Virus record (IMG/VR): IMGVR_UViG_3300042503_001614
Coordinates: 1 to 38,100 of that record
Reading direction: 5' to 3' (one strand)
Source of the DNA: a virus
Length of the DNA: 38,100 nt
Within the stretch, counting starts at the first letter, position 1. Each line of letters starts with the position of its first letter. The position numbers were made by a program, and so were the translations under genes. This document shows, piece by piece, positions 1-38,100 of this stretch. The notes under the pieces are model-generated. The model did not search any database. It saw only the letters and a program-made list of their open reading frames with translations, and was not told where the DNA came from.

Positions 1-127
1 TATAGTCGACATTCGATTCAAGATTCTGGTTTGTTTTCTCTCATGTTTGGAGCGGCAAAAGCGGTAAGGAGCAAAGAGTTCATTGACTCTTGGTATCATA
101 AGTTAGTCGAGACGACTCGTGAAAACG
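1..127. repeat. Terminal direct repeat, left copy
   Basis: These bases are identical to 37974-38100. The repeat lies inside one open reading frame that continues across the join, so it is the overlap left when a circular (or circularly permuted) genome is written linearly. A 127-base overlap equals a k-mer size common in short-read assemblers, so I read it as an assembly signature, not as physical phage ends. Confidence 0.95.
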
Positions 128-714
128 GATATCTTGGATCAGTGGTTGAAGTCGACTGTCAAAAGTTATTTGGAGTCGATGCCGCTTGGTACTATCGAGA
201 ACGAATGAGAAAAGATCTTCCAGACAATAGGATCATAAATGTATTTCATCTTGAAGATGGACAAAAGGGACTTGATCGATTGATCGAGTTTAGCGATTAC
301 ATCGCGGTATCGATCCCCGAGTTGAGAAGTGTCGGCAAAAGAAACCATGCAGAGAGGATCGGTCACTATATCAAGAATAAAAAGCCGGAGATTGATATTC
401 ACCTTCTTGGTTGTACGGAAAATAAATTATTGAAATCATTAAACTTCTGTTCGTCGGCAGATTCCACCACTTGGACCGCTTTCAATAAGTATGGTTTCTT
501 CCGCTTTAACAATGGACAAAAGACTTTCAATGTAAAAAAGAAACAGATCAACCGCGAACTCTTGAAGGAAAAGTATTTTCAGAAGGCAATAGAGTTGATG
601 GAAATCTCAGGATATAAGATCACTGAAAGTTATGCATTCTATTTTGCTTGCGATCTTTTACAATTGGAATATCTGATCAAACAATACACCTACTATGCTG
701 GTCCACAAGATTAA
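1..714 (+). CDS. dpdA: DpdA-type DNA guanine transglycosylase, copy A (3' part)
   Basis: This is the C-terminal part (residues 69-305) of a 305-residue protein whose GTG start is at 37770. DpdA enzymes are relatives of tRNA-guanine transglycosylase (TGT) that swap guanine in DNA for a 7-deazaguanine base. Seen here: DSG at residues 76-78, matching the TGT substrate-binding DSGGF box; VEVDCQ around Asp120; HLLGCTEN near 202-209; and ADSTTW, with Asp222 as the candidate nucleophile. The zinc-binding CxCxxC motif of bacterial TGT is not visible. The protein matches copy B (715-1623) over its full length, and the stop is followed directly by the ATG of copy B. Family assignment rests on motifs, the paralogue and the queuosine-type neighbours. 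Substrate choice cannot be read from sequence. Confidence 0.85.
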   Translation, partial: YSRHSIQDSGLFSLMFGAAKAVRSKEFIDSWYHKLVETTRENGYLGSVVEVDCQKLFGVDAAWYYRERMRKDLPDNRIINVFHLEDGQKGLDRLIEFSDYIAVSIPELRSVGKRNHAERIGHYIKNKKPEIDIHLLGCTENKLLKSLNFCSSADSTTWTAFNKYGFFRFNNGQKTFNVKKKQINRELLKEKYFQKAIELMEISGYKITESYAFYFACDLLQLEYLIKQYTYYAGPQD

Positions 715-1623
715 ATGATCATAGAAAATCAATCAAATATCAAAATACATTTTGCTGGTCTTGAAGTCCAACTCTTTGCCGAGATTCTTCATGAATGTTC
801 GGGAATCAGATATTCCCTTTTCTCGATCTTCCCGCTTATCGCAAATGTACTCGGTATCAAGGCGATCAAACAAACGAGCGTTGAAAAAGAGAGCGCAAAA
901 TATCTGAGCAAAGCGAGTCGACATTCAATAATGGATAGCGGTCTGTATTCATTGATGTTTGGAGTCCATGCAGGCAAGAGAACCGAAAAGGACATTGAAA
1001 TATGGTATAACGAAATAATCAATTTCGTCAATGAAAACCAAGTCCGATCGAGTATCGTTGAGGTCGATTGTCAAAAAATGTTTGGAGTTGAGAAGGCATG
1101 GGAATACAGAATCAGGATGGAAAAAGATCTTCCATCGAATCGAAGGATCAATGTCTTCCACATTGAAGATGGTCAGAAGGGATTGGATCGGTTGATTGAA
1201 TTCTCAGACTATCTCGCCATATCGGTTCCGGAATTAAGGAAGATCAAAAAAAAGGATCATGTTGAAAGACTGGCAAACTATATCAAGAGCAAGAAGCCCA
1301 GTATCGATATACATTTGCTTGGATGTACCGAGAATAATCTTTTGAATAAATTAAACTTTTGTTCAAGTAGCGATTCGACATCTTGGCAGCAAGTGAATAG
1401 GTTTGGTGTCTTGAATTACAATAATGGCAAGAAAAATCTGAAGATCAGAAACCGAGATATCAACAAAGATATTCTCAACCAAAAATATAGAAAGCAAGTT
1501 GACTCGATCATGAGCAAGTGGTTTGAGCCGAATGAGAAAAGATTCGATTCTTATTCCAAATTTGCTCTTGCTGGAGAATTACTCTTAAAACAATATACAC
1601 ATTATGCTGGCACTCAAGATTAG
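715..1623 (+). CDS. dpdA: DpdA-type DNA guanine transglycosylase, copy B
   Basis: A 302-residue full-length paralogue of copy A. It starts with ATG directly after the copy A stop. The two N-termini align without gaps (both have xNxKIHFAG near residues 7-15), which supports both start choices. It keeps the same key boxes: DSG at 74-76, VEVDCQ with Asp118, INVFHIEDGQKGLDRLIEFS near 145-164, and DSTSW with Asp220 as the likely nucleophile. The known role of the family is post-replicative insertion of 7-deazaguanines into DNA, which blocks many restriction enzymes. The clearest differences between copies are at residues 18-30, at 48-68 and in the C-terminal third. They could have split in base or sequence specificity (inference). 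Confidence 0.87.
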   Translation: MIIENQSNIKIHFAGLEVQLFAEILHECSGIRYSLFSIFPLIANVLGIKAIKQTSVEKESAKYLSKASRHSIMDSGLYSLMFGVHAGKRTEKDIEIWYNEIINFVNENQVRSSIVEVDCQKMFGVEKAWEYRIRMEKDLPSNRRINVFHIEDGQKGLDRLIEFSDYLAISVPELRKIKKKDHVERLANYIKSKKPSIDIHLLGCTENNLLNKLNFCSSSDSTSWQQVNRFGVLNYNNGKKNLKIRNRDINKDILNQKYRKQVDSIMSKWFEPNEKRFDSYSKFALAGELLLKQYTHYAGTQD

Positions 1624-2128
1624 TCTCTATCTCTTTGCGATCATTATCAGTAATTTTGTCGTGCATTGGATGGGATCGCAAGGTCTGATCTTTACCGCTC
1701 TTTTCCTGATTCCATTTGATTATGTCATGAGATGTTACTTTCATGAGAAGTGGAGCGGAAAGGAATTGATCTTGAAACTTGGATCGATCACGATCCTTGG
1801 AAGTCTTTTGACTTTTGCATTTAATCAAGATACATTGAATATCGCGATTGGATCTTCAGTATCTTTTTTTTCTGCTCAAATAATGGCGGGATTGTTTTAT
1901 CGGATCAATCTCAAAAGATCGTACTTTGTAAAAGTAAATGGAAGCGACTTGATCGCTATCATTGTTGATTCATTGATCTTTCAAATGATTGCTTTTCAAA
2001 ATATAGATCTTGATATCTTTTACTCGCAAGTATTCCTCAAGTTTATTGGAGGTCTCTTTTGGTATTCTATATTGTTTAGAAAAGGAAGAGAGTCATTTGT
2101 AATGCGAGACATAGAACGAGGAGAATAA
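1604..2128 (+). CDS. yhhQ: VUT-family (YhhQ/QueT-like) 7-deazaguanine transporter
   Basis: A 174-residue, strongly hydrophobic protein with about five or six membrane segments (starting near residues 5-20, 26-42, 57-72, 77-98, 115-135 and 142-158). Its pattern fits the VUT/YhhQ family, which takes up the queuosine precursor preQ0 in bacteria: an IPFDYVMR box after the second segment, FFSAQIMAGLFY, and an NGSDLIAIIVDSLIFQ box. It overlaps the end of dpdA copy B by 20 bases, and its stop overlaps the queD start by one base, so it is translated inside the operon. It likely sits in the host inner membrane and imports a 7-deazaguanine base. It is shorter than the roughly 220-residue bacterial proteins. 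The imported substrate is inferred. Confidence 0.7.
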   Translation: MLALKISLYLFAIIISNFVVHWMGSQGLIFTALFLIPFDYVMRCYFHEKWSGKELILKLGSITILGSLLTFAFNQDTLNIAIGSSVSFFSAQIMAGLFYRINLKRSYFVKVNGSDLIAIIVDSLIFQMIAFQNIDLDIFYSQVFLKFIGGLFWYSILFRKGRESFVMRDIERGE

Positions 2129-2559
2129 TGTACATAGCAGAACGATATCACGATATCTCTTGTGGACATAGAGTAGTCGGACATGAATCCAAATGTAGGT
2201 TTATTCATGGTCATAACTATCGGATCCATTTTGTCTGCTCTTCAAAGTCGCTTGACGATCTTGGAAGAGTAATCGACTTTTCAGTAATTAAAGAAAAGTT
2301 ATGTATGTGGATCGAAAACCACTTTGATCATAAGACTTTAATCTGGAGACATGATCCAATGCTTGAAGGACTCAAGGCGATATCAGAAGAAAGTATTGTG
2401 GTCGTTGACTTTAATCCAACGGCAGAAAATATAGCCGAGTATCTTGTGAAAGTGATTGCTCCCACCTTGCTTGAAGGCACCGGAATCGATTTGATTGAAT
2501 GCAGGGTTGAAGAGACAAGAAAGTGCTCGGCAGTTTATCGAAAAGGAGAAATGTTATGA
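2128..2559 (+). CDS. queD: 6-carboxytetrahydropterin synthase QueD
   Basis: 143 residues, the normal QueD size. QueD turns dihydroneopterin triphosphate into 6-carboxy-5,6,7,8-tetrahydropterin, the second step of 7-deazaguanine synthesis. Visible motifs: zinc ligands His14 (SCGHRV) and the HGH at 27-29; catalytic Cys23 four residues before the HGH (CxxxHGH); the Asp67-His68 pair (FDHKTL); and Glu129 in CRVEET, which holds the pterin. All expected active-site residues are present, so it should be active. It is preceded by an ACGAGGAGA ribosome site. It overlaps the transporter stop by one base and the queE start by four (ATGA), so translation is coupled. Confidence 0.93.
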   Translation: MYIAERYHDISCGHRVVGHESKCRFIHGHNYRIHFVCSSKSLDDLGRVIDFSVIKEKLCMWIENHFDHKTLIWRHDPMLEGLKAISEESIVVVDFNPTAENIAEYLVKVIAPTLLEGTGIDLIECRVEETRKCSAVYRKGEML

Positions 2560-3158
2560 AATTAAATGTCTCGGAGATATTTTATTCTCTCCAAGCAGAA
2601 GGAGCGAGAAAAGGAACTCCAACTATTTTCATTCGGCTTCAAGGATGCAAAGCAAAACATGCTTGCTATGCTTCCGGTATCAAATGCGATACTGAATTTG
2701 AATCTGGAAGATCGTATTCATTATTGGAGTTATTGGGAAAGATCCAAGAGTTTTCTCTTGACTGTAACGAGATCACTTGGACAGGAGGAGAACCGCTTGA
2801 TCAATTGAATAAGGAAGTGATTGATTTCTTTAAGCAAGAAGGATATTTTCAAGCAGTCGAAACTTCTGGTCTTCATGCTTGTGATATCGGGATCGATTTC
2901 ATCTGTGTTTCTCCAAAGGTAGCCGAACATGTCATCTCGAGAAACTTTCCCGATGGTGTCGATGAACTGAGATATGTTAGGCATACTGGTCAAGAAATCC
3001 CTCAACCTTCAATAGATGCAAAACATCTTTGGATCAGCCCGCATAGCGATGGCAATCAAATCAATAGAGAAAATCTTCGACATTGCATTGACCTTTGTTT
3101 GAAGAATCCAAAGTGGAAACTATCAGTACAGGATCATAAAGTATGGAATGTTTTATAG
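2556..3158 (+). CDS. queE: 7-carboxy-7-deazaguanine synthase QueE (radical SAM), unusual Cys spacing
   Basis: 200 residues, start ATG at 2556 behind AAAAGGAGAA. QueE is a radical-SAM enzyme that converts 6-carboxytetrahydropterin to 7-carboxy-7-deazaguanine (CDG). Support: the start LNVSEIFYSLQAEG, FIRLQGC at 26-31, CDTEFESG at 44-51 and the SAM-contacting TWTGGEPLDQ. The iron-sulfur cysteines appear to be Cys31, Cys37 and Cys44, a C-x5-C-x6-C layout in place of the usual CxxxCxxC. The rest of the fold looks intact, so it is probably active with an inserted loop, as other QueE subgroups also vary here. It overlaps the next gene by 16 bases. Confidence 0.88.
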   Translation: MKLNVSEIFYSLQAEGARKGTPTIFIRLQGCKAKHACYASGIKCDTEFESGRSYSLLELLGKIQEFSLDCNEITWTGGEPLDQLNKEVIDFFKQEGYFQAVETSGLHACDIGIDFICVSPKVAEHVISRNFPDGVDELRYVRHTGQEIPQPSIDAKHLWISPHSDGNQINRENLRHCIDLCLKNPKWKLSVQDHKVWNVL

Positions 3159-3955
3159 GTTGGGAAGAGATCAAGTCAAGAGTCTCCAAACTTGATCAAT
3201 CCAAAAAATACTATGGAGTGCCACGAGGCGGTCAATACATTGCCGCTATGCTTAACCCAGTCGATACGATTGAAGAATGTGATATTATCATTGACGATCT
3301 GATCGACTCAGGCTCTACAAGAGATCGCTTTAAGCATTCGGGCAAAGAGTTTATTGGACTATTCGATAAAACCTCTGAACCTTTTCTAAAGGATAAGTGG
3401 TTAGTATTTCCATGGGAACTCAAGAGTGAGCCGATTGAAGATAATGTCCGGAGAATAATTCAATACATTGGTGAAGATGTTGATCGGGAAGGACTCAAGG
3501 AAACTCCAAAGAGATACGCAAAATTTCTTCGAGAGTTTCTGGAAGAGAAGGAATTTAATTTTACGACTTTTGATTCCGAAGGCATGGATCAAATGATCGT
3601 ACAAAGAGATATTCATTTCTTCTCGCTATGCGAGCACCATCTTGCTCCTTTTTTTGGGACCGCCACGATTGCTTATATCCCCAGCAAGAAAATAGTCGGT
3701 TTGTCAAAATTAGCCAGAGTTGTCGATCATTATGCAAACCGTTTACAAAATCAAGAAAGGATCACTCAACAGATCGCAGATCGAATCGAAGAGGAATTGG
3801 AGCCGCTTGGAGTCGCGGTGAGCCTGACCGCTGAACATCTTTGCATGTCAATGCGAGGAGTCAAAAAACCAGGAGCAAAGACAACTACCCAATGTTTGAA
3901 AGGAAGATTCATGACAGATCAACAAACGAGATCGGAATTCATGCGGTTGATATAA
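3143..3955 (+). CDS. folE: Phosphoribosyltransferase-GTP cyclohydrolase I fusion
   Basis: 270 residues in two parts. Residues about 96-270 are GTP cyclohydrolase I, which opens GTP to dihydroneopterin triphosphate and feeds QueD. Its zinc ligands Cys163 and His166 (SLCEHH) and Cys234 (EHLCMSMRGV) are all present. Residues 1 to about 95 look like a compact phosphoribosyltransferase: YYGVPRGGQ at 23-31, the PRPP loop DIIIDDLIDSGST at 47-59, and VFPWE at 88-92, which is common in small phage PRTases. The reading frame is continuous and no stop separates the parts. The PRTase half may recycle a purine-like base to its nucleotide, or the reverse, near the start of the pathway (inference). It is the last gene of the modification cluster. 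Confidence 0.9.
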   Translation: MECFIGWEEIKSRVSKLDQSKKYYGVPRGGQYIAAMLNPVDTIEECDIIIDDLIDSGSTRDRFKHSGKEFIGLFDKTSEPFLKDKWLVFPWELKSEPIEDNVRRIIQYIGEDVDREGLKETPKRYAKFLREFLEEKEFNFTTFDSEGMDQMIVQRDIHFFSLCEHHLAPFFGTATIAYIPSKKIVGLSKLARVVDHYANRLQNQERITQQIADRIEEELEPLGVAVSLTAEHLCMSMRGVKKPGAKTTTQCLKGRFMTDQQTRSEFMRLI

Positions 3956-3985: not shown

Positions 3986-4306
3986 ATGCCAAGACCAGAA
4001 AATGTCATAGGAAAAGGAAAGCGATGGAAGAAAGGAGAAAGCGGCAATCCAAAAGGAAGGCCAAAGAAACTTCCAGATCTTCGAGATACTTTTGTCGAAA
4101 TTCTCTCCGATGAGAAAAAAGACAAGACGGCTCTCTTTGCTATACTTGCTCGGTTGCGGAACGAAGCGGTAAACGGAAACATTCGAGCGGCAGAATTGAT
4201 CCTGAGATATTGTTATCCGAATGGTATTGAATCAGAGACCTCAAATGATATCGAAGTCGTTTGGGGTAAAATGAAGGTTGAAGGTCAAGATGAAACTAAC
4301 GATTGA
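3986..4306 (+). CDS. Terminase small subunit-like protein
   Basis: 106 residues with a basic N-terminus. The GESGNPKGRPKK box at about 17-28 is typical of DUF5681-type phage proteins, which are often encoded just before the large terminase. A helical part follows (LRDTFVEIL to ELILRYCYP). The gene overlaps the large terminase start by 17 bases. By position it should recognise the packaging site on phage DNA and recruit the ATPase. The box and position support this, but the fold cannot be checked here. Confidence 0.65.
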   Translation: MPRPENVIGKGKRWKKGESGNPKGRPKKLPDLRDTFVEILSDEKKDKTALFAILARLRNEAVNGNIRAAELILRYCYPNGIESETSNDIEVVWGKMKVEGQDETND

Positions 4307-5444
4307 ACTCCATGAGAAGCAATATGAAATTTTTGAAAATTACAATCGCTTTAATGTTATTCGTTGCGGTCGCCGTTTTGGCAAATCTTACCTCGCGTTT
4401 GCTCTCGCTCTTGAGTCGATGCTTGGAGAAGATGGTTGTCATGTTTTATACACCGCACCATCATACCAAGACCTCAAGAAAAGATACCGCGATGCCAAGA
4501 AACTATTCATCCCTCTTGGAGCAATATGTAAGGAAGGAGAGATCAAACTGAAAAACTCTTACTTAGAATTCTCAGGAGTTTGGAGATCGGAAACGATCAG
4601 AGGAAATTCATATCAACGAGTGATTTGTGATGAATGGGCGTTTGCAGATAATGGAGAGGAAGCATGGCAAGATGTAATCATGCCGACTCTCGCAGATCAT
4701 GAAGGCGATGCTTTTTTCTTCTCGACTCCGAGCGGTCGAAATCATTTTTACGATCTTGATAAAATGAGTGATCTGTATTCGAATTGGCAATCATTTCATT
4801 ATACAAGTTATGATAATCCCCTGATAAAAAAATCGGAAATCGATTTGATGAAACAGCAACTTCCATCGCTTGCATTTGCTCAGGAAATCCTTGCCGAATA
4901 TGTCGATCGTGGCGCTTCAAAGATCAAGAGAGAATGGATCATAAACGATGACTCTAAAGTCTGCAAAGACTTTTACATCGGAGTCGATCTCGCGATCTCT
5001 CAAAAGGAAACCGCAGACTACACCGCTATTGTGGCGATCGGAGTCACTGAAGATCAAGAGATTGTTGTCGTTGATGCGGTAAGAGGTCGTTGGACTTTCG
5101 TTGAGATTGGAAGAAGAATAATTGAAATGCATGATAAGTGGCAAGCAAGAGTGGTTGGAGTTGAGGCGGTTCAAGCACAAGCGTGGATGGTTCAAGAACT
5201 CAAACGCAATACCAGAATGAATGTTGTCGGGATGAAAGCAGATCGCGACAAAGTGATCAGATTTCAGCCGGTTGAAGCCAGATATGAACAGAGATTGATA
5301 TCACATGTATCGACTCTTCCAAAAGAATTTACTGAAGAACTTTTGAATTTTACAGGCACTTCTCAAGATAGACACGACGACTTTATTGACGCTCTTGCCT
5401 ATGCTTTTCATGCCATACGAAAAACTCCGAGCATAATGATATGA
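4290..5444 (+). CDS. terL: Terminase large subunit
   Basis: 384 residues from ATG 4290. A TTG twelve bases upstream is less likely. This is the packaging motor: an ATPase that pumps DNA into the prohead and a nuclease that cuts concatemers. Walker A is RCGRRFGKS (25-33), Walker B is VICDE (111-115), and the coupling motif FFFSTPSG follows. The RNase H-like nuclease begins at FYIGVDLAIS, with further acidic residues in VVGVEAVQ and the C-terminal HDDFIDALAYA. At 384 residues it is on the short side for TerL, but both domains are complete. It overlaps the portal gene by four bases (ATGA). Confidence 0.95.
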   Translation: MKLTIELHEKQYEIFENYNRFNVIRCGRRFGKSYLAFALALESMLGEDGCHVLYTAPSYQDLKKRYRDAKKLFIPLGAICKEGEIKLKNSYLEFSGVWRSETIRGNSYQRVICDEWAFADNGEEAWQDVIMPTLADHEGDAFFFSTPSGRNHFYDLDKMSDLYSNWQSFHYTSYDNPLIKKSEIDLMKQQLPSLAFAQEILAEYVDRGASKIKREWIINDDSKVCKDFYIGVDLAISQKETADYTAIVAIGVTEDQEIVVVDAVRGRWTFVEIGRRIIEMHDKWQARVVGVEAVQAQAWMVQELKRNTRMNVVGMKADRDKVIRFQPVEARYEQRLISHVSTLPKEFTEELLNFTGTSQDRHDDFIDALAYAFHAIRKTPSIMI

Positions 5445-7465
5445 CCATTCTTGATACAATCAGAGATCGAGTCGCAAATGCAATTCGACCACAAAGACAA
5501 ATCAACCCAAACAACAGAAGATCAGGAGATCGAAATGTCGGGACAGTTAGTGCCGGCAATGAACTTTCCGCTTCAATAAGAGGAACCGTCTTTGCTTGTC
5601 TTCAACATCGAGCAAACGCACTGGCAAATCTTGACTTCAAGTCATATAAAATGAATAACTTTTCTCTTGAAGAGAATGGAAGTTACCATTGGACAAATGA
5701 ATTGCTCAGGAATCCAAATCCTTATTTTACGAGATCCCAGACCTTCAACTATCTTGAGAATTGGTTGTCGATCAATGGCAATGCTTTTATTTGGACTCCG
5801 ACAAATGGTTATCGAGTACCAGTCCAAATGTGGGTATTGAATCCAACGAGAGTGAGAGTGATCAAAGGATCAGATTCATTCATTGATGGATATGTTTATC
5901 AATCGGCTCAGGAAGGCAATATCGCTATACCTGAAAAGGAAATGATTCACCTCGCGAGGATCCACCCAGCAGCAAGACAAGAAGAGATAATCGGGATGAA
6001 TATGTTTGGAGTCGGACTCGTGACGGCCGCTCTTGAATACGCGAATATCGATCGTGAAGTCTCTGCTTATCTCGCCAGACTTTTCAAAAATAATACCGTT
6101 CCGCCATTGATCGCAAAGTTTGCCGAAAGAATGGACTACGATGAATGGGAAAGACTCAAGGCAAGATGGAATGAGGAACTACCTGACTACAAACTTAGAG
6201 CAATGTTGGGAGGCGGTCTTGGATTGGAACTTCCACCAAAAGGAGAACTTTCGATCTCGTATGATTCCGTATCGAGTGATACAAGATCTCAAATCGCACA
6301 AGTCTTTGGAGTGCCACCGGGAATGTTGACCGGGGAATATCAAAACCGAGCAACAGCAGAGGTTCAATGGGCTATCTTCAGACAAAACACAATAGATCCC
6401 GAGGCAAGTTACATTGCTGAAGAATTTAGTCGTCACTTTCAAAGATGGGAAGAAGGAGTATTGATCGAAGCCGATAAATTTCAATACGACGATCCTTCAA
6501 CCCAAATGCAGCAAGAAGAATTTGAACTCAAGTGGGGAATCAAGACAATTAACGATTCCAGAAAACAAAGAGGTTACGATCCAATTATCGGAGGCGATGT
6601 ACCATTGATCGCAAATGGATTCGTTCCGCTTTCAATCAACTCAGAAGGCAATGTCAACCAAGTGGTCCAAAAGTCAAACGCAAAACCTTTTGAGACTCAA
6701 GATACAAGATCGGAGCTTCGTCCTCTCAATAGCGCTCCGATTGATATCACGACTGCAAACATGAGGGATCGCGACTACTTCTGGCGACAATTCGATACGA
6801 TCACCACTGACAATTCTGTCGGGATTGAAAAGATAATTTCAAAGGCATTCCAAGATATTCAAAACAAAGTGATTGAAAAATCATTGATTGATATCAAAGC
6901 GCTTGAAGGAATGGAATTGACAAAAGAACAAATGACTCAGATTCAAGATTCATTGAATGAGGCAAGTGAAATTGTTCGTGTCGAATTGGCAAAGGAACTC
7001 GGCATAGATCCTGAAGATGTCCCGCTCCCGCTATCTCAACAAATCGACACCTTGACAAAACAAAGCACCGAGAAAATCACTGAGTCGATTTCAGTTGCTC
7101 GTGCCGAGTTGATCAAAGTCGTGAGAGCAAATGCGACAAGAGATCCAAACGAGTTAAAGGATATTCTCATGAGAAAGTTTGGACAACTCAAAGAATCAAG
7201 AGCAAAGATGATCGCAAGAACGACTTCCTCAAATGTCACGAGTGGTGTCCAGTATTCGGTATATCGAAGCAAAGGAATCAAGATGGCATGGTTAACTCAG
7301 AGAGACGGAGCGGTCAGACCTGCTCACCAAGCAGTTGATGGACAGATCCCAAATGAATCAGGTCTTTTCAATGTTGGAGGTCAAATGACCACAAGACCAC
7401 TCGGAGAAGGTTTGTCGGCAGCAAATTCAGTTAATTGTCGTTGCCAATTATTCCCGGTCAGATAA
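5441..7465 (+). CDS. Portal protein fused to a MuF-type head morphogenesis domain
   Basis: 674 residues. The first ~430 look like an HK97-type portal (SPP1/HK97 family): the N-terminal arm, NWLSINGNAFIW near 105, the DRYx-type middle, and the VFGVPPGMLTGEY motif near 288 in the ring core. The last ~100 residues form a MuF minor capsid domain: ELIKVVRANATRDP, SRAKMIARTTSSNV, WLTQRDGAVRPAHQAVDGQ and a final NCRCQL. MuF is usually a separate gene after portal. Here both are one frame with no stop between them. The fusion would place a MuF domain on each of the twelve portal subunits. It starts inside the terminase stop. Confidence 0.92.
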   Translation: MTILDTIRDRVANAIRPQRQINPNNRRSGDRNVGTVSAGNELSASIRGTVFACLQHRANALANLDFKSYKMNNFSLEENGSYHWTNELLRNPNPYFTRSQTFNYLENWLSINGNAFIWTPTNGYRVPVQMWVLNPTRVRVIKGSDSFIDGYVYQSAQEGNIAIPEKEMIHLARIHPAARQEEIIGMNMFGVGLVTAALEYANIDREVSAYLARLFKNNTVPPLIAKFAERMDYDEWERLKARWNEELPDYKLRAMLGGGLGLELPPKGELSISYDSVSSDTRSQIAQVFGVPPGMLTGEYQNRATAEVQWAIFRQNTIDPEASYIAEEFSRHFQRWEEGVLIEADKFQYDDPSTQMQQEEFELKWGIKTINDSRKQRGYDPIIGGDVPLIANGFVPLSINSEGNVNQVVQKSNAKPFETQDTRSELRPLNSAPIDITTANMRDRDYFWRQFDTITTDNSVGIEKIISKAFQDIQNKVIEKSLIDIKALEGMELTKEQMTQIQDSLNEASEIVRVELAKELGIDPEDVPLPLSQQIDTLTKQSTEKITESISVARAELIKVVRANATRDPNELKDILMRKFGQLKESRAKMIARTTSSNVTSGVQYSVYRSKGIKMAWLTQRDGAVRPAHQAVDGQIPNESGLFNVGGQMTTRPLGEGLSAANSVNCRCQLFPVR

Positions 7466-36884: not shown

Positions 36885-37412
36885 ATGAAGGTCAAGTTGA
36901 GTCAAGTCAAAGAAAATGAAATGAATCCAAGATTCATTCGTGACGATAATTTCAAAAAACTGGTCAAAAGTATCCAAGAGTTTCCTGAAATGCTATCGGT
37001 GAGAAAACTTGTCGTGAATAAGGACATGGTGGTTCTCGGAGGCAATATGAGATTGAAGGCATTGAAGGAAGCCGGAATCAAGGAAGTTGAAGTTGAGGTC
37101 GTTGATTGGAATGAAGAGAAGCAAAGAGAGTTTGTCGTGAAAGATAACCTCGGATATGGAGAGTGGGACTTTGAAATGTTGGCAAACGAATGGGATCATG
37201 AATCACTTGAAGACTGGGGACTCAAGATTCCAGGATTCGAATCGGTTGATAATCTTGAAGATCTATTTGATGTCCCTTTACAAGAAGAAGAAAAGGATAA
37301 CTTCAAGATCGTACTCGAATATACTGAGGAAGAATATCAAAAAGTGATAGAAGCCTTCAAGATCCATGCTGGCAGTAAAGAAGAAGTTGTCGCGAGGTTG
37401 CTTGGACTATGA
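36885..37412 (+). CDS. ParB/Srx-fold protein at the head of the modification cluster
   Basis: 175 residues, ATG behind AAGGAGCAAGC. Residues 1 to about 90 are a ParB N-terminal fold: EMNPRFIRDDNFKKLVKSIQEFPEMLSVRKLVVNKDMVVLGGNMRLKALKEAG with the GGNMRxxA box, then VEVEVVDW. These folds bind nucleotide (CTP in ParB) or act as nucleases or kinases. In phages they are often found beside DNA modification enzymes. The C-terminal part is acidic. It overlaps the QueD-like gene by four bases, linking it to the 7-deazaguanine operon. Its role there is unknown. Confidence 0.78.
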   Translation: MKVKLSQVKENEMNPRFIRDDNFKKLVKSIQEFPEMLSVRKLVVNKDMVVLGGNMRLKALKEAGIKEVEVEVVDWNEEKQREFVVKDNLGYGEWDFEMLANEWDHESLEDWGLKIPGFESVDNLEDLFDVPLQEEEKDNFKIVLEYTEEEYQKVIEAFKIHAGSKEEVVARLLGL

Positions 37413-37786
37413 AAATAGTAAACAAAAAAAATATCGTGATCGGTAAGATCAAAGTGGAAGGTTTTCATTTTTATCCAACGGCACCACAATTGGTAGAATA
37501 TCTTGCTCAAAAGCATCGACATACATTTGAAATCACATTTGGATATCAAGTCACAGATCTTGATCGCGAAAGAGAAATCTTCATTGAAAGGAATAGAGTT
37601 TTATCTTTTATCTTTTCAAAATATCCAAATGTCGAGCATGAAATCTATTTTACAAATAGATCGTGCGAAATGATCGCGAATGATATCTTGAGTGAATTTG
37701 AAGATGACGGCATGATATTTTGCGAAGTATGGGAAGAGCAAACTGGTGGAGCAAGAATAGAGGTCGAAAGTGATCACTGGAAATAG
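37409..37786 (+). CDS. QueD-like tunnelling-fold protein lacking the catalytic Cys
   Basis: 125 residues. It keeps the zinc-type histidines His20 (GFHFYP) and His36/His38 (KHRH in place of HGH), a His77 where QueD has its DH pair, and the Glu109/110 block (CEVWEEQTGGARIE). The residue four before the first zinc His, Cys in QueD, is Leu32 here. So it has the fold but not the normal QueD chemistry. A true QueD is at 2128-2559. It probably acts on a pterin or 7-deazaguanine product. A tailoring enzyme such as a CDG decarboxylase (DpdL-type) is one possibility. Its end overlaps the start of dpdA copy A by 17 bases. Confidence 0.7.
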   Translation: MKIVNKKNIVIGKIKVEGFHFYPTAPQLVEYLAQKHRHTFEITFGYQVTDLDREREIFIERNRVLSFIFSKYPNVEHEIYFTNRSCEMIANDILSEFEDDGMIFCEVWEEQTGGARIEVESDHWK

Positions 37787-38100
37787 TCATAACCTGAAGA
37801 TTCACTTTGCTGGTGGCGAAGCCCTGATCAGATCAAACATGATCTTACAAGGAGCGGGATCGAAATATGTCTTGTTTACTATCTTTCCATATCTATGTGA
37901 TCAGTTTGGGATCAAGCATGGATATCAACGCAACAAAGAAGGATATAAGGACATCGCGGAAAACAACATGAAGTATAGTCGACATTCGATTCAAGATTCT
38001 GGTTTGTTTTCTCTCATGTTTGGAGCGGCAAAAGCGGTAAGGAGCAAAGAGTTCATTGACTCTTGGTATCATAAGTTAGTCGAGACGACTCGTGAAAACG
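37770..38100 (+). CDS. dpdA: DpdA-type DNA guanine transglycosylase, copy A (5' part)
   Basis: Start and N-terminal part of copy A, which continues at base 1 (38100 equals base 127). GTG 37770 is chosen because the product then aligns to the N-terminus of copy B residue by residue over the first 15, and AGAGGTCGAAA stands upstream. The reading frame joins the 1-714 frame exactly after removing the 127-base overlap, giving 305 residues in total. It overlaps the end of the QueD-like gene. Motifs and role are given under 1-714. Confidence 0.87.
   Translation, partial: MITGNSHNLKIHFAGGEALIRSNMILQGAGSKYVLFTIFPYLCDQFGIKHGYQRNKEGYKDIAENNMKYSRHSIQDSGLFSLMFGAAKAVRSKEFIDSWYHKLVETTREN
37974..38100. repeat. 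Terminal direct repeat, right copy
   Basis: Identical to bases 1-127. It closes the genome into a circle of 37,973 bp and confirms that the window is complete. Confidence 0.95.

Follow-up and report, generated by a model that had tools for sequence, protein, structure and literature searches.

A phage 7-deazaguanine operon with two DpdA proteins of separate ancestry and a T-fold protein in place of QueC

The window, as we call the whole stretch of viral DNA analyzed here (a metagenome contig of 38,100 nucleotides; IMG/VR record IMGVR_UViG_3300042503_001614), starts with 127 bases that are exactly repeated at its end, so that the contig can be closed as a circle of 37,973 bp. An operon spans the join, and is composed of genes for a ParB-like protein, a small T-fold protein (TF), two DpdA proteins (copies A and B), a VUT transporter, QueD, QueE and a FolE protein fused to a phosphoribosyltransferase-like stretch, all in one overlapping run on the + strand (Table 1). 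The crossing of the contig join, proposed in the preliminary description of this DNA, is borne out by the terminal repeat and by the reading frame of copy A, which is unbroken across the join; the match to the DpdA of phage L033 also runs at full length through it. The interval 37409-38100, which had been given as the start of the operon, covers no more than the TF gene and the initial third of copy A, and that part of the description did not stand. The transporter and the three 7-deazaguanine synthesis enzymes listed there were confirmed by profile matches (Vut_1, QueD, QueE and FolE). In most relatives, a ParB-like gene likewise comes directly before dpdA or before the T-fold gene. The N-terminal stretch of the window's FolE contains a DDLIDSGST motif, and similarly long FolE proteins (270 aa or more) are present in many relatives. 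Overall, profile, fold, motif and context evidence supports the assignment of the operon to the phage 7-deazaguanine DNA-modification type, with two predicted DpdA enzymes, both intact.

Table 1. Coordinates of the operon genes and of the terminal repeat in the window.
Feature	Position	Strand	Remarks
Terminal direct repeat	1..127	no strand	Identical copy at 37974-38100; unique length 37,973
ParB N-terminal-domain protein, first gene of the block	36885..37412	+	Pfam ParB_N E 7e-5, just below cut-off; PHROGs 498/620
TF, small T-fold protein, QueD/PTPS superfamily	37409..37786	+	PHROG 17812; fold model; 36-row alignment
DpdA copy A, first part	37770..38100	+	GTG start; overlaps TF end; continues past the join, base 128 to 714
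DpdA copy A, second part	1..714	+	Bases 1-127 are the repeat; TAA stop 712-714; whole protein 305 aa
DpdA copy B	715..1623	+	302 aa; begins directly after the stop of A (TAA-ATG)
VUT-family transporter, YhhQ-like	1604..2128	+	Pfam Vut_1 E 2e-5, just below cut-off; uptake of 7-deazaguanine precursor presumed
QueD, 6-carboxytetrahydropterin synthase	2128..2559	+	PTPS E 2e-26; PHROG 2389 E 7e-51
QueE, 7-carboxy-7-deazaguanine synthase	2556..3158	+	TIGR04508 E 8e-32 (under equivalog cut-off); PHROG 2076 E 6e-22
FolE (GTP cyclohydrolase I) with N-terminal phosphoribosyltransferase-like stretch	3143..3955	+	GTP_cyclohydroI E 4e-68; TIGR00063 above cut-off; PHROG 8995 at residues 48-96

Copies A and B had been described as full-length, adjacent and alike from end to end, which holds, as 154 of 305 residues are identical (50%) in a match over the whole length (E 2e-112). 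PHROG 887, a "queuine tRNA-ribosyltransferase" family, matches both copies (E 9e-19 and 9e-21), while searches with Pfam and NCBIfam profiles returned no match for either. The fold was modelled for copy B (pLDDT 94.5), and its top fold matches are all tRNA-guanine transglycosylases (TGTs; Z 16.7 over 264 residues); copy A was placed through its 50% identity to B along its length. A solved DpdA was not among the fold-search matches listed, and a sequence search of solved structures with the DpdA and TF proteins gave no relevant match. Copy B can be aligned by profile (E 4e-5) with the DpdA of Escherichia phage CAjan, a protein of genetically proven function (PMC6884629), and the DSG, FH, LHxxG and DSxSW motifs then fall in register. 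The candidate catalytic Asp, said earlier to be kept in both copies, is indeed retained, both in the DSG motif and in the DSTSW/DSTTW motif: these are D74 and D220 in B, with equivalents in A, and they are invariant across nearly all relatives. His149 of B (VFH motif) is invariant as well, and aligns with the FH of the CAjan protein by motif, not by the published number 196, the conserved His at that residue being absent from DpdA2 (PMC6884629). With tblastn, this subfamily of approximately 300 aa was found in a single isolate phage record (Roos). Judging by sequence and fold, both A and B probably act on DNA, inserting a 7-deazaguanine.

To see how the two copies are related, trees were built from 89 and from 40 DpdA proteins. 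They place copy A as sister to the DpdA proteins of phages L031 and L033 (76% identity, support 100/100), whereas copy B falls in another clade, together with those of L006, L008, L013 and L014 (identity up to 68%), and the tree neighbors of each copy are DpdAs that stand alone in other phages. Constraining A and B as sisters resulted in a tree 159 log units worse (p_AU 8e-57), which rules out the local duplication of one dpdA gene; "paralogues", in the sense of copies duplicated in place, is thus not a term that fits the pair, as they are not each other's closest relatives. The collinear phage L033 (38,096 bp) has one DpdA, of type A and in the same place, and most of its proteins are 60-90% identical to those of the window; the ParB, QueD, QueE and FolE proteins of the window are 77-86% identical to those of the L031/L033 phage. 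The idea that TF, B and the transporter were imported as a single block was rejected: in the transporter tree the window branches with L031/L033, which indicates a native transporter, and the TF tree is unresolved. Taken together, the best explanation is that the pair was formed by recombination, which united two old DpdA lineages in one operon.

Across the wider family, 116 loci were compared, and two of them carry a pair of full-length DpdA copies, those of the window and of L126; within the window's own DpdA family (about 115 loci) the full-length pair is found in the window only. The L126 pair (4291-6038) is likewise adjacent and accompanied by TF, VUT, QueD, QueE and FolE; unlike that of the window, it belongs to a distant DpdA subfamily and consists of sister copies (64% identity), i.e., it is a true local duplication, separate from the event in the window. 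Its first copy carries DSG and its second DCG. A tblastn search of isolate phages with one L126 DpdA found 215 records with one place each, in a comparison where a divergent second copy could escape detection. No other operon with two DpdAs of separate origin was found in this search. In two further loci (L091 1140-2020 and L168 5992-6868), DpdA is split into two open frames, either because the gene is broken or through an error in sequencing. Moreover, Arthrobacter phage Sonali (L270; 1054-1671 and 4041-4931) has two genes annotated as DpdA-like or queuine transglycosylase; the DpdA profile matches gp87 and not gp81, and its operon order (ParB-DpdA-QueC-QueD-QueE-FolE) is the same as that of L259.

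We next turned to the missing QueC. No QueC was found in the window's circle with two profiles, by a search that did recover the gene from L031, L033 and L052 and from control genomes. TF, a member of PHROG 17812 (function unknown), was modelled with a pLDDT of 93 as a T-fold, with E. coli QueD (4ntk) as best match (Foldseek E 1e-6, Z 13.4). In a 36-row alignment, H20 and H36 are invariant and H38 is present in 35 of 36 sequences, three histidines of the zinc type as in the QueD/PTPS family, with which TF also has in common a Glu near the C-terminus; C86, E87 and E109 are conserved too. However, none of the 36 sequences shows a conserved Cys just ahead of the HxH motif, where QueD has its catalytic Cys, the conserved Cys of TF lying instead in an SCE helix. 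The window's ordinary QueD, which is a gene separate from TF, does carry this residue (C23 in KCRFIHGH).

A count over those DpdA loci that include pathway genes and whose upstream sequence is complete gave TF without QueC in 88, QueC without TF in four, and no locus with both or with neither. Whole-contig searches agree with this alternation, which the tree maps as three switches with both genes changing together each time. As three concerted switches are too few for significance in a paired test (p 0.25), the pattern rests on the absence of exceptions. Among 12 isolate phage genomes, TF was detected in four (Roos, phiST, MA9V-3 and BUCT-ZZ01) and QueC in six (CAjan, 9g, Dp-1, Sonali, nt-1 and M39), never together. 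The sequence pattern suggests that TF replaces QueC, acting on the QueE product, 7-carboxy-7-deazaguanine (CDG); that it would do so by removing the carboxyl group of CDG is a guess. Since QueC is absent and TF is found instead, the inserted base is probably other than preQ0. In addition, TF, QueD, QueE and FolE are present with no recognised DpdA in phiST and BUCT-ZZ01 (in the latter, within 18 kb), and TF therefore probably acts before insertion, on the free base. Cui et al. 2023 reportedly described further phage 7-deazaguanines, some needing no QueC, and the T-fold family may already have a name. As side observations, the QueC proteins of L033 (7473-8126), L052 (6917-7585) and L259 (2136-2789) score above the TIGR00364 cut-off but are missing the zinc cysteines expected at the C-terminus, C(x)8CxxCxxC, a QueC signature (PMC13329287); their reaction might end at the amide, or they might not bind zinc. 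L236 has, between TF and DpdA, an open frame of 205 aa (4397-5014) of unknown function.

Phages with DpdA and the pathway, including one, Bipper, that lacks QueC alone, have been described, and YhhQ transporters have been noted in some phages (PMC6884629). The CAjan system resembles that of the window in the TGT fold and motifs of its DpdA and in an operon with FolE, QueD and QueE and a transporter nearby, but the window has two non-sister DpdAs of about 300 aa in one operon and a T-fold protein instead of QueC. In the operon of Mycobacterium phage Bipper (FolE, QueD, QueE and DpdA; PMC6884629) the pathway also ends before QueC and a ParB-like gene lies upstream, although there is one DpdA only, and an extra small gene, gp4, has no match to TF. 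The pathway genes of Bipper come without QueC and without any TF that could be detected, which shows that not every such phage depends on TF; profile comparison gave no support to gp4 as a divergent T-fold. In Cellulophaga phage phiST, a TF homologue adjoins QueD, QueE and FolE, and QueC is absent, as in the window; unlike the window, it carries genes for a phosphoribosyltransferase and a kinase-like protein and no DpdA was found, which suggests insertion at the nucleotide level. Several loci have DpdA and no base-making gene in the stretch covered: Faecalibacterium phage Roos (L001, 7831-10562) has ParB-like, TF, DpdA and transporter genes, while L050, L051, L057, L058, L063 and L079 have ParB-like and DpdA genes and no TF, with a YhhQ-like transporter adjoining DpdA in L050. 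These look like users of a host or imported base. In comparison with earlier work, it is new that two DpdAs of one operon descend from separate lineages, and perhaps also that QueC and a QueD-like T-fold protein alternate without exception. The preliminary description had mentioned neither the joining of two lineages, nor the absence of QueC, nor the QueD-like protein in its place, and the TF gene is the most informative part of the operon.

Both copies are under purifying selection: compared with the nearest relative of each, pS is about 0.85 and pN 0.17-0.21 (for B against L006, 0.86 and 0.21), these values being given instead of dN/dS as synonymous sites are saturated. Copy B contains 12.1 GATC sites per kb, against 12.8 in the window's genome. 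With GATC absent from the B relatives L006 and L008, this density indicates that B has long been resident. GATC is not linked to the DpdA clade, as counts over 90 loci vary inside both clades (the window and L033 are GATC-rich, several B-type phages GATC-free), and its content looks host-driven. In the window's circle as a whole, GATC is in excess (487 observed, 371 expected), and other sites are strongly avoided: AGCT (3 vs 80), ACGT (2 vs 31), GGCC (8 vs 41), CTAG (0 vs 20) and AATATT (0 vs 22). AGCT is not avoided in L033 (83 vs 104), and the two phages therefore probably meet different restriction systems.

To what extent do A and B differ in function? The preliminary description had put forward a split in base or in sequence context, and thus two different guanine modifications, and had proposed structure models of both copies with a comparison of their pockets. 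Copy B was modelled, with a TGT fold, and the pockets were compared through motifs, 18 positions being paired by eye with those residues of Z. mobilis TGT that take part in catalysis or bind the base. A and B have the same residue at fifteen of these presumed catalytic or pocket positions, against 51% identity overall, and the three that differ are all conservative (Tyr/Phe 78, Ile/Val 169 and Val/Ile 171). By contrast, clade-fixed differences flank the catalytic residues: position 73, immediately before catalytic Asp74, is Gln in A and Met in B, and positions 226 and 229 lie six and nine residues past the nucleophile Asp220. The residues that follow the nucleophile touch neighboring bases in the tRNA enzymes, and by analogy the corresponding residues of DpdA may read the bases next to the target. 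A conservative pocket together with clade-fixed differences beside the catalytic residues favors the same base in different contexts, so that two target-sequence contexts appear likelier than two bases. The context half of the earlier proposal thus gains support from these differences, whereas the base half, and with it the claim of two modifications, is not supported, given the pocket and the presence of one base-making pathway only.

Some room for a difference in base is nevertheless left by the relatives of A. Its sister DpdA has QueC but not TF in its operon, in the phage type to which the ParB, QueD, QueE and FolE proteins of the window are also close, and Ile171 is common to A and the QueC-type enzymes, most TF-type enzymes having Val; the equivalent position in Z. 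mobilis TGT, Val233, is changed to Gly in a queuine-bound structure (title of 4hqv). Copy A could then insert a preQ0-type base, imported or made via the host's QueC, and copy B the base finished by TF. We consider this improbable, as A-clade DpdAs in L028, L032, L034 and L088 occur with TF and without QueC, showing that the A lineage is not bound to preQ0, as the pocket differences are conservative, and as the whole genome yielded no QueC. A passing state, in which the second DpdA was gained by recombination and one of two redundant copies will be lost, would suit the finding of the pair in a single locus of its family, and is only slightly less doubtful: B has diverged by at least 32% from any relative found and shows no decay, and its GATC density indicates a residence long enough for loss.

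Still less probable is that A and B form a heterodimer working as one enzyme, like the two-subunit eukaryotic queuine transglycosylase. TGTs are dimers, and the direct succession of the two genes suits equal expression, but both lineages are single in the other phages examined, apart from the 2 of 116 loci with two copies, and must work alone there; furthermore, all catalytic residues are kept in both, unlike in the non-catalytic eukaryotic partner. We therefore retain as the best explanation, at a probability of roughly one half, a 7-deazaguanine operon with a T-fold protein in QueC's place and two DpdAs that insert the same base in different contexts.

Under this explanation, FolE, QueD and QueE would make CDG, which TF would pass on as such or as a simpler base derived from it, with a possible contribution of imported base through the VUT protein. 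The two DpdA enzymes, both of which would have stayed functional, would exchange guanine in the phage DNA for this base, A and B most likely recognizing different DNA contexts, and together they would shield more sites from host restriction. A broader outcome, that the T-fold protein gives a non-preQ0 base and that two DpdAs of separate origin, with different contexts or even bases, produce two overlapping patterns of guanine modification, is put forward tentatively, as something possible though on balance doubtful.

If true, the operon would represent a natural experiment on DpdA targeting, with two related enzymes that have a near-identical base pocket and clade-fixed differences beside the catalytic site. 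Moreover, the exclusivity of QueC and the T-fold protein would be a simple gene-content rule by which phages with a non-preQ0 base could be predicted, and would single out one small gene, while DpdA enzymes of known context would be of use wherever modified bases are to be written into DNA.
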